A stretch of DNA of 48,554 nucleotides, from NCBI GenBank assembly GCA_947630045.1, contig CANRGC010000014.1, forward strand, positions 1 through 48,554. Reading direction: 5' to 3'. The stretch comes from Candidatus Gastranaerophilales bacterium. GTDB lineage: Bacteria > Cyanobacteriota > Vampirovibrionia > Gastranaerophilales > Gastranaerophilaceae. Made by a program: the position numbers and the translations under genes. Below are positions 44,996 through 48,554 of the stretch, in pieces (the stretch's first letter is position 1; every line of letters begins with the position of its first letter). The notes below the pieces were generated by a model that saw only the letters and a list, made by a program, of their open reading frames with translations, searched no databases and had not been told where the DNA came from.

Positions 44996-45106
44996 ACTTT
45001 TGTTACGATTGTTTATAATTGTTAAAGTTATCCTTAAAATATACCGTTCTTTTAAATTAAGGTTTTCTCTCGGTTTTACTTTTTTAATTTAAGGATGTTT
45101 GCAGGT

Positions 45107-48100
45107 ATGATTTTAAATAGGTTTAAAAGCGTAATGCTTTTTGCTTTTATGCTTAGTTTTGCTTTTTCTTCCGCTGGGTTTTGTGAAGAAGATAAAAGCT
45201 ATTCTCTTGTTGAGGTCAAAAAAAGTGGTGACCACACAATAACTAAATATGAATATGATAAAGAAAATGGAAAGCTTGTTCCTAAATATTATAGAGTTGA
45301 ATTAAGAAAAACTGATTATACGGTTAAAAGTCCCGAAGAAGGGGCGTATAAATTAACTGAAGTTAAAGAAGGGGAAGAAAAAGACGGAGAGAATATAATT
45401 ACACAATATGAATATGATAATAATACAGGGAAACTTGTTCCTAAATATTATAGAGTTGAATTAAAAAAAACCACGTATGGGAGTGGAGATACAACAGATA
45501 AATATACTTGGGAAAAAGATGAAAACGGGAATAATAAATTTGTAAAAACCAAAGATACTACTGATATGACAGATAAAACTGTTATTGAGGTGAAATATAA
45601 TAATGTTGAAAAAACGCACGACCGAATAAACAATCCTGCCAACACAACCATTGATAAAGTAAGCGGAGAATTTAAAAACCTTTCTGACAGCTCTAATGGC
45701 GCCGCAATATCAAATGAAGGAGAAATTGATGAAATTACAAGTGATTTTATAGGGAATTATGCAAAATCAGTAAATAGTTATGTCTATGGCGGGGCGATAT
45801 ATAATAATGGCAAAATCGGTGATATAAAAGGCGATTTTGTCGGCAATTACGCAGAATCAGGAAAATTTTCAGACTCAAACAATACAATGGGCGGAGCTGT
45901 ATATAACGGCACAAACGGAACGATTGACAATATAACAGGAAATTTCATCGGAAACCATACAAGCACAAGCACATCATTGGCTTATGCTACAGGCGGAGCG
46001 ATATATAACGAAGGCACAATCGGTGGTATAACAGGAGATTTTATTGGAAACTATGTTGATGACTATGGCGGGGCTATATATAACGAAGGCACGATTGACA
46101 ATATTAAGGGTAATTTTATAGGAAACCTTTCAGACAGTAGCGGCGGGGCGATATATAACAAAAAGGGCACAATTAAAGATATAACAGGTGATTTTATAGG
46201 GAACTATTCAAAATCAGAAAATTATTATGACTATGGCGGGGTTATATATAACGAAGGCACGATTGACAATATTAAGGGTAATTTTATAGGAAACCTTTCA
46301 GACAGTAGCGGCGGGGCGATATATAATATATCCAAACATAAAAAAGATACATCAACAATAAAAGAAATAGTCGGCAGTTTTATCGGAAACCATGCCGAAG
46401 GAAGCTCTGCCTGTGGCGGTGTGATATATAATTATGCCGTAGGAAAGTCTGAAATCGGAAATATCACAGGCGATTTTATCGGAAACTATGCCAAATCAAA
46501 TTCAGGCAACGCATATGGCGGTGTAATATACAACTACTCAGACACAGCACATAGCACATATGGAGAAGCTAAAATCGGAGATATTAAAGGTGATTTTATC
46601 GGAAACCACGTCAAATCTAAAAATTATGCCTATGGCGGGGCGATATATAATAGCTATGGCACAATTGGGAATATAACAGGTGATTTTATAGGAAATTATG
46701 CAAAATCAGAAAATTATTCTGTCCATGGCGGTGCAATATATAATTACTATAGCTCAATCGGGGATATAACAGGTGATTTTATAGGGAATTATGCAAAATC
46801 AGAAAATAGTTATGCCTATGGCGGAGCAATATATAACTCCGATGACACAATTGAAAATATAACAGGTGATTTTATAGGAAATTACGCAAAATCAAAAAAA
46901 TATTCTGTCTATGGCGGGGCAATATATAATGATGATGGCATAATCGGGGATATAACAGGTGATTTTATAGGAAACTATGCAAAATCAGAAAATTATTCTG
47001 CCTATGGCGGGGCGATATATAATTATGGCAGCTCAGCAAAAATTGAGAATATAACAGGTGATTTTGTCGGAAACTATGCAGAAGGCAACAGTTATGCCTA
47101 TGGCGGGGCGATATATAATTATGAAGGCACAATTGGGGATATATCAGGTAATTTTATTGGGAACTATGCAATATCAGAAAATGGCGGGGCTGATGGCGGA
47201 GCTATATACAACTATACAGGTACAAAAAACACAAGCGCAAAGATTGGAAATATCACGGGTGATTTTGTAGGTAACTATGTAATATCAGAAAATGGTTATG
47301 CCGAAGGCGGGGCGATATACAACTATACAGATACAAAAAACACAAGCGCAAAGATTGGAAATATCAATGGTAATTTCATAGGGAACTATGCAAAGGGAAA
47401 AACCAACGCTTATGGCGGGGCGATATATAATTTTGCCAAAAGAACATCAAGCACAACAATTGGAAATATCACGGGTGATTTCATAAATAACCATATAGAA
47501 TCAGATTCGGGCGAAGCTCATGGCGGGGCTATATTTAACGATAACAACAGCGAAATCGGAAACATTACGGGTAATTTTATCGGAAACTATGCGGCTTCAA
47601 CTTCAGGCACTTCAAAAGGGGGTGCAATATATAATGACGGAATTATAGGCGAACAAGATAAAGACGGCAACGTTATTGGCGGGATAGTAAACTCTAACTT
47701 TATCGGAAATTATGCCGAAACAAAAGGCGGAGCTATATGGACAAAAACTGATTTAAATATTATTGCGGATAACGGAAGTTCGCTTTTTGAAGGAAACTAT
47801 ACAGGTTCCGGTGACGATATCCACCCGCAGGCAATTTGGGTTAAAGAAGCAACTTTAAGTTTAATTTCAAAAAATAACGGAACTATTGTCTTTAACGACA
47901 GAATTAACGGAGAAAACTATAATCTCAATATTAAAGGCGATAAAGATTCGAAAGTTGTTTTGAATAACTATATAACAGGCGGGGGGAATATCACGCTTGA
48001 AGATACAAATCTTTATCTCGGGCATGATTATGTATTTAGCTATGACAAATTAGATTTAAAAAGCGGCATGATATCAATGATGAACGGTGCCGTTGAAGAC

Positions 48101-48554
48101 ACCCATATAAATGAATTTAAAATCTCAGGAAATACTGATTTTATGGGTGATGTTGATTTAGCAAACGAGAAAATGGACAGGTTTGCTTCAACAAGCTATG
48201 GTGAAATGAATGGAAATCTTAATGTCAAAGGGTTAAATCTTTTGTCAGACGCAACGAAAGATGAAGTAGAAATTCTTTTTGCGGATAAATCATTTAAAGA
48301 CAGGGTAACAGTTTCAATTAAGGATAATTCGCTTCCGAGTGAATATCAAATGAGCGCATACAGCCCGATATATAAATATGGGGTTAAATACGAAAGCAAA
48401 GACGGGGACAAAGACGGCGGATATTTCGTCTTTACAAGAGGTGACAGAATATTTGGCGCTGATTCTTCAGAAAGCTATAACCCCTCTGTATTATCAAGTG
48501 AGGTTTCGGCTCAGAGCGGAAACAGGGCTATGATGAGTGAATCTATGAGGTATG
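45107..48554 (+). CDS. Giant exported Pmp-like repeat protein (truncated by the window end)
   Basis: Open frame of 1149 codons running off the window, with no stop codon seen. ATG 45107 with AAGGA about 11 bases upstream; an in-frame ATG at 45095 is possible. A signal peptide (KSVMLFAFMLSFAFSSAGFC) precedes two N-terminal repeats (YEYD...GKLVPKYYRVEL). From about codon 195 to 885 there are about 21 units of 23-35 residues with GGAIYN near the start and FIGNYA near the end. GGA[I/L/V] plus FxxN is the signature of chlamydial polymorphic membrane proteins, which form a beta-helix passenger on an autotransporter barrel. The last part seen is non-repetitive (MSMMNGAV-like and beta-rich). The barrel, if any, lies beyond the window. 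Confidence 0.85.
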   Translation, partial: MILNRFKSVMLFAFMLSFAFSSAGFCEEDKSYSLVEVKKSGDHTITKYEYDKENGKLVPKYYRVELRKTDYTVKSPEEGAYKLTEVKEGEEKDGENIITQYEYDNNTGKLVPKYYRVELKKTTYGSGDTTDKYTWEKDENGNNKFVKTKDTTDMTDKTVIEVKYNNVEKTHDRINNPANTTIDKVSGEFKNLSDSSNGAAISNEGEIDEITSDFIGNYAKSVNSYVYGGAIYNNGKIGDIKGDFVGNYAESGKFSDSNNTMGGAVYNGTNGTIDNITGNFIGNHTSTSTSLAYATGGAIYNEGTIGGITGDFIGNYVDDYGGAIYNEGTIDNIKGNFIGNLSDSSGGAIYNKKGTIKDITGDFIGNYSKSENYYDYGGVIYNEGTIDNIKGNFIGNLSDSSGGAIYNISKHKKDTSTIKEIVGSFIGNHAEGSSACGGVIYNYAVGKSEIGNITGDFIGNYAKSNSGNAYGGVIYNYSDTAHSTYGEAKIGDIKGDFIGNHVKSKNYAYGGAIYNSYGTIGNITGDFIGNYAKSENYSVHGGAIYNYYSSIGDITGDFIGNYAKSENSYAYGGAIYNSDDTIENITGDFIGNYAKSKKYSVYGGAIYNDDGIIGDITGDFIGNYAKSENYSAYGGAIYNYGSSAKIENITGDFVGNYAEGNSYAYGGAIYNYEGTIGDISGNFIGNYAISENGGADGGAIYNYTGTKNTSAKIGNITGDFVGNYVISENGYAEGGAIYNYTDTKNTSAKIGNINGNFIGNYAKGKTNAYGGAIYNFAKRTSSTTIGNITGDFINNHIESDSGEAHGGAIFNDNNSEIGNITGNFIGNYAASTSGTSKGGAIYNDGIIGEQDKDGNVIGGIVNSNFIGNYAETKGGAIWTKTDLNIIADNGSSLFEGNYTGSGDDIHPQAIWVKEATLSLISKNNGTIVFNDRINGENYNLNIKGDKDSKVVLNNYITGGGNITLEDTNLYLGHDYVFSYDKLDLKSGMISMMNGAVEDTHINEFKISGNTDFMGDVDLANEKMDRFASTSYGEMNGNLNVKGLNLLSDATKDEVEILFADKSFKDRVTVSIKDNSLPSEYQMSAYSPIYKYGVKYESKDGDKDGGYFVFTRGDRIFGADSSESYNPSVLSSEVSAQSGNRAMMSESMRY
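45740..47760 (+). repeat. In-frame tandem repeats of the Pmp-like gene
   Basis: About 21 units of roughly 70-105 bases each encode GGAIYN...TGDFIGNY. Units between 46630 and 47110 are close to identical in DNA sequence. A stretch of about 100 bases at 46060-46159 recurs 168 bases downstream with one or two differences. This is a protein-coding repeat, not a CRISPR array. Confidence 0.85.

Follow-up and report, generated by a model that had tools for sequence, protein, structure and literature searches.

The last gene of a contig from a Candidatus Gastranaerophilales genome encodes a long repeat protein whose motifs resemble those of chlamydial polymorphic membrane proteins (Pmps) – raising the question of whether a Pmp-type surface protein exists in this gut bacterium. 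We analyzed the whole contig (G000:C14; 48,554 nucleotides, hereafter the window), one of 29 in a 1.70 Mb genome, and searched genomes of the same order, most of which are 1.5–2.6 Mb in size. The evidence presented below makes it very probable that the gene product is a classical (type Va) autotransporter from a family specific to Gastranaerophilales, with a predicted beta-helix passenger, a barrel anchor and, most likely, an adhesive role.

Gene organization and repeat motifs

The gene lies on the forward strand, and its frame is open from position 45095 to the last base of the window, with no stop codon. Because the frame runs off the contig end, an anchor cannot be shown from the window alone. 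Two in-frame ATG codons, at 45095 and 45107, could serve as the start; we favor 45107, since an AAGGA sequence (45091–45095) lies ~11 nt upstream of it and since it agrees with the start of a sister gene on contig C9 of the same genome. The adjoining transporter gene is 71–79% identical to genes from Candidatus Gastranaerophilales MAGs and at most 60% identical to genes from other groups.

The encoded protein begins with a putative signal peptide, which we recognized by its basic N-terminus, hydrophobic core, glycine at position −3 and cysteine at −1, and which is nearly identical in the C9 sister protein (Table 1). Between the signal peptide and the repeats lies a module of ~45 residues that is present in two copies. 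Among 146 genomes of the order, a profile search identified this N-terminal module in 29, every one from the window’s family; a single genome has as many as 12 matches, and almost all matches lie within long frames. The open frame, the signal peptide, the distinct N-terminal module and the paired motifs had each been pointed out in a preliminary description of this DNA, and all were borne out. In two other genomes, several autotransporter frames (L081–L083, L086 (genome G108), L088, L091, L092 (genome G085)) contain additional in-frame sequence, for example SLSLGEGWGEGW or LTPNPSPKGRGEE, before or around the signal peptide; it resembles translated copies of dispersed repeats that inserted at, or immediately upstream of, the gene start.

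Table 1. Features of the Pmp-like gene at the 3' end of the window.
Feature	Positions	Strand	Basis
Open frame of the Pmp-like, probable autotransporter; 3' end cut by contig end	45107–48554	+	Open reading frame listing with open ends; contig ends at 48554
Putative signal peptide MILNRFKSVMLFAFMLSFAFSSAGFC, cleavage probably before EE	45107–45184	+	Read from sequence by eye
N-terminal module, copy 1 (Y-L-x-E-V ... ITKYEY ... G ... PKYYRVEL ...)	45194–45325	+	Alignment; profile E 7e-24 (model includes own sequence)
N-terminal module, copy 2	45344–45487	+	Alignment; profile E 9e-24 (model includes own sequence)
Repeat region, 21 F[IV][GN]N / GG[AV][IV] pairs, predicted beta-helix	45746–47737	+	Motif counts, PF02415, AlphaFold2, structure comparisons
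Repeat unit, 99% identity to 46235–46309, recent local duplication	46067–46141	+	Unit comparison
Repeat unit, 99% identity to 46067–46141	46235–46309	+	Unit comparison
C-terminal motif-free part of passenger (stalk, from repeats to barrel), conserved with C2 paralogue	47738–48478	+	55% identity over 288 aa to G000:C2 (alignment also takes in first residues of barrel domain, up to break)
First 25 residues of conserved barrel domain NPSVLSSEVSAQSGNRAMMSESMRY, remainder off contig	48479–48554	+	48% identity to C2 barrel start

The preliminary description had estimated that about 21 units pair a GGA-type with an FxxN-type motif. We counted 21 GG[AV][IVL] and 21 F[IV][GN]N motifs, which alternate along the protein, and found that 2000 shuffled versions of the protein contained at most three of either. 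The Pfam Chlam_PMP family (PF02415), proposed earlier as a check, matched the protein in 11 stretches (45.3 bits, E 4.6e-12), while the NCBIfam model TIGR01376 scored 15.1 bits, barely over its cut-off of 15.

A further proposal – that the motifs have chlamydial spacing – did not hold. By the published values, which we took as the standard (PMC11166332 section 3.1), 75% of GGA-to-FxxN gaps in Chlamydia are 14–18 residues long and 57% of FxxN-to-GGA gaps are 4–5 residues long (PMC11166332), whereas only 5 of 20 and ~4 of 20 of the respective gaps in the window protein fall within these ranges. Its GGA-to-FxxN gaps are mostly 12–13 residues (mode 13) and its FxxN-to-GGA gaps mostly 9–10 (mode 10).

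The repeats recur every 31 aa (93 bp) where they are most regular and every 25–39 aa overall, with three units only 25 aa long. At the DNA level their most regular stretch forms a 93-bp tandem array, 77–84% matched. The suggestion that the repeats were recently amplified stands locally, for the one pair of units that share 99% identity, and fails elsewhere: the remaining units are 57–88% identical to their nearest neighbor within the gene and are often equally close to units of the C9 sister gene. Amplification is thus real but mostly not recent.

Predicted structure of the passenger

Using AlphaFold2 on the window sequence only, as a single sequence without an alignment, we obtained a regular beta-helix for residues 441–877 (437 residues; mean pLDDT 93.7, pTM 0.91), the fold anticipated in the preliminary description. 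A model of residues 183–1153 is a continuous beta-helix with a mean pLDDT of 74.4; values are close to 90 within the regular repeats and drop under 50 at the truncated end, and the stalk strands are of mixed confidence.

Foldseek searches against the PDB and viral models returned no match at E 0.001, and a sequence search of solved structures yielded no match for the window protein (P0001) and a chance match only for P0003. DALI searches with chlamydial Pmps likewise retrieved generic beta-helices only (PMC10715098), a parallel to the weak Foldseek outcome here. The following structural values come from re-alignment of Foldseek candidates that individually fall below Foldseek significance (E 0.001). 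The 437-residue model aligned with AlgE6 (Z 22.1, rmsd 4.3, 324 residues), the EtpA adhesin (Z 20.1, rmsd 3.6, 315 residues) and the PfbA adhesin (Z 18.7, rmsd 4.2, 343 residues), and phi29 gp12 also belongs to this group (Z 18–22, 315–343 residues aligned). All four are right-handed beta-helical proteins. The left-handed helices of GlmU and LpxD fitted far more poorly (rmsd >10). With its handedness taken from these alignments to beta-helical proteins, the repeat region is predicted to form a regular right-handed beta-helix.

Among autotransporters, the longer model aligned with UpaB (Z 12.3, rmsd 4.4, 361 residues), Fap2 (Z 12.5, rmsd 7.2, 583 residues) and Antigen 43 (Z 13–14 but rmsd 19–22). 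Antigen 43 is a self-associating autotransporter, and its match favors a variant of the autotransporter reading in which the protein has a structural or self-association role – in a surface coat or biofilm – rather than one in host adhesion. We regard this variant as the less likely one, though a serious contender: the evidence does not tell self-association apart from attachment to other surfaces, and the variant is a close alternative to the adhesive role that we prefer.

Paralogues, barrel and family distribution

AlgE6, pectate lyases and alginate lyases are among the best structural neighbors of the passenger, and the window itself lacks a barrel; both points would fit a secreted or otherwise anchored beta-helix protein without a barrel, for instance one resembling a polysaccharide lyase or epimerase. 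The repeats, however, are of low complexity and match no Pfam enzyme family, and a shared fold shows no function.

The source genome contains five further genes with such repeats (on contigs C2, C8, C17, C12 and C9). Four of these extend to a barrel domain; the exception is the C9 sister gene, which has the same signal peptide and N-terminal module and is likewise cut by a contig end. When barrels were scanned alone, those of the complete C2 and C8 paralogues matched the autotransporter family PF03797 above cut-off (E 9e-11 and 3e-16), that of C12 matched weakly, and that of C17 did not match, although it is 38% identical to the C2 barrel. PF03797 was absent from all whole-protein scans and appeared only when the barrel was scanned alone, so a negative whole-protein scan is no evidence of a missing barrel. 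A complete homologue from the same genus (G004:C3; 1365 aa) contains N-terminal module, repeats, stalk and barrel in the same order.

Downstream of its repeats, the window protein continues into a stalk of ~250 residues that lacks GGA and FxxN motifs and, scanned in isolation, has no match in Pfam. The stalk leads into the 25 residues that resemble the start of the C2 barrel – a weak match by itself (E 0.53) with which the barrel alignment agrees. A barrel-less protein is improbable given the 55% identity to a barrel-bearing paralogue and a break that falls inside the start of a conserved domain. By paralogy with C2 and C8, we infer that the window gene probably encodes a C-terminal autotransporter barrel. 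The search for a barrel suggested by the preliminary description thus succeeded in the complete paralogues, while the window gene itself ends 25 residues into the domain. Type Va is used here for proteins with a C-terminal 12-strand barrel on the same polypeptide.

We looked for the rest of the gene: the last 555 bases of the window had no match elsewhere in the genome. An orphan last barrel strand (a 24-residue stub) does occupy the end of contig C16, where it reads inwards, in a compatible orientation. This stub may be the missing end of the window gene, or of the C9 gene, since the latter is also cut by a contig end. Beside the stub (L058, 9014–9185, and contig end, 9273–9401) are short frames, CHPELVSGS and LKQVQGDK, that look like a translated dispersed repeat element; a search of the window for the core of this element returned nothing convincing. 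Separated from the C2 paralogue by two genes is a second barrel protein (L025, 10180–13413; 1077 aa frame; PF03797 E 9e-7) without Pmp-type repeats.

The genome encodes Omp85/BamA machinery: three PF01103 matches exceed the cut-off, the best of them at E 9.7e-50. The final strand of the family’s barrels has a sequence such as GLRFAIGK, and a charged tail often comes after it in place of the usual C-terminal aromatic residue. The outer-membrane insertion signal may therefore be unusual in this group.

A barrel profile built from eight rows, four of them from the source genome, matched 108 genomes in a sample of 292 from across the phylum: 107 of the window’s family and one other of the same order, with no match in the remaining genomes of the sample. 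PF02415 matched 85 of 146 genomes of the order, 80 of them above cut-off. The family is heterogeneous, as the motif spacing of the C17 paralogue is closer to the chlamydial pattern. In two genomes with 6–7 compared copies, barrels share 92–99% protein identity, and the 200 aa preceding the barrel only 42–93%. Recent gene conversion of the barrels was considered and rejected, because synonymous differences per site are high in the barrels (medians 0.44 and 0.57), and the stalk values (0.62 and 0.76) exceed them only moderately. The barrels are thus kept alike mainly by purifying selection rather than by recent copying.

A 4039-residue frame in genome G003 (L074, 3097–15213) combines 34 GGA motifs and several non-repeat sections with the same barrel, and longer PF02415-matching frames exist (e.g., 8459 aa at G067:C7). 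In a Candidatus Gastranaerophilales MAG, a 2264-residue frame (L041, 2–6796) joins a passenger of a different repeat type to the same kind of barrel; it lies directly upstream of a transporter gene whose homologue adjoins the window gene.

Proposed function and comparison with known systems

In a classical autotransporter, the signal peptide would carry the protein across the inner membrane, and the C-terminal barrel, cut off here, would insert into the outer membrane with the aid of Omp85/BamA, for which genes are present. The passenger, presumably surface exposed, would fold outside the cell as a long beta-helix with approximately one predicted rung per GGA/FxxN unit. Judging from published Pmp models, the variable FxxN-to-GGA segment would probably loop out on one face, and the N-terminal module would occupy the distal tip. 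The protein would most likely serve to attach the cell to gut mucus, to host surfaces or to other microbes. Variation would arise through gain or loss of repeats and as paralogous passengers diverge while their anchor stays conserved, and diversification may itself be a function.

More tentatively, and with somewhat less than even confidence, we propose that gut Gastranaerophilaceae possess a large, lineage-specific repertoire of Pmp-like autotransporters, with ~10 members in some genomes, that combines a conserved barrel, diverging repeat passengers and a new N-terminal tip module into a surface system that diversifies and that arose independently of chlamydial Pmps, by convergence. The Gastranaerophilales, relatives of cyanobacteria that live in the gut, are common yet little studied. 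Literature searches on Gastranaerophilales or Melainabacteria together with autotransporters, adhesins or polymorphic membrane proteins found no relevant paper – none describing an autotransporter family or its N-terminal module in Gastranaerophilales, nor any adhesin in the group. The large predicted family of surface autotransporters provides concrete genes with which to test how these bacteria attach and interact.

Compared with chlamydial Pmps (PF02415, TIGR01376), the window protein has the same pairing of GGA[I/L/V] and FxxN motifs, a passenger predicted to be a regular beta-helix, a signal peptide, membership of a multi-copy family and, by paralogy, a C-terminal autotransporter barrel. 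It differs in both gap lengths, in its rungs of 25–39 aa (at least 27 residues in Chlamydia; PMC10715098), in its own N-terminal module and in its Gastranaerophilales host. The ~200-residue Pmp middle domain, which lies between repeats and barrel, had no Pfam match when the complete window protein was scanned at E values of up to 10, nor in the isolated stalk. That the gene is a true chlamydial Pmp, horizontally transferred to a gut bacterium, is the least probable reading of all: the PF02415 match and the marginal TIGR01376 score speak for it, but spacing and middle domain speak against it, and barrel, stalk and N-terminal module are common to many Gastranaerophilaceae genomes, which makes an origin within the lineage more economical.

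Pmp-type motifs have also been reported from more than 100 non-chlamydial species, where they fold similarly, including an Akkermansia autotransporter with 43 coils (PMC10715098, PMC11166332). Given the differing spacing, the absence of a middle-domain match and these published motifs outside Chlamydia, we describe the window protein as Pmp-like, not shown to be a Pmp. The earlier interpretation therefore survives in its broad form – a PF02415 repeat in a predicted beta-helix, in a non-chlamydial host, with a barrel by paralogy – and not in its strict chlamydial form: the protein works like a Pmp, but membership of the chlamydial Pmp family is not supported.

Classical beta-helical autotransporters (PF03797; UpaB, Antigen 43, Fap2, Hbp) have the same architecture and presumably the same export route as the window protein, whose passenger has no detectable sequence relation to solved structures and whose family barrel is only distantly matched by Pfam. 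Closer in motif are proteins of Akkermansia glycaniphila (A0A1C7PBX1, likewise a predicted classical autotransporter), Phycisphaerae, Methanobrevibacter and Trichomonas, in which the same motif pair occurs in predicted beta-helix rungs (PMC10715098, PMC11166332). Compared with these by description, the Gastranaerophilales family is set apart by its own N-terminal module and barrel type and by its spread over one bacterial family. As an independent occurrence of the Pmp rung outside Chlamydia, it helps to separate the structural role of the motif from its role in infection.
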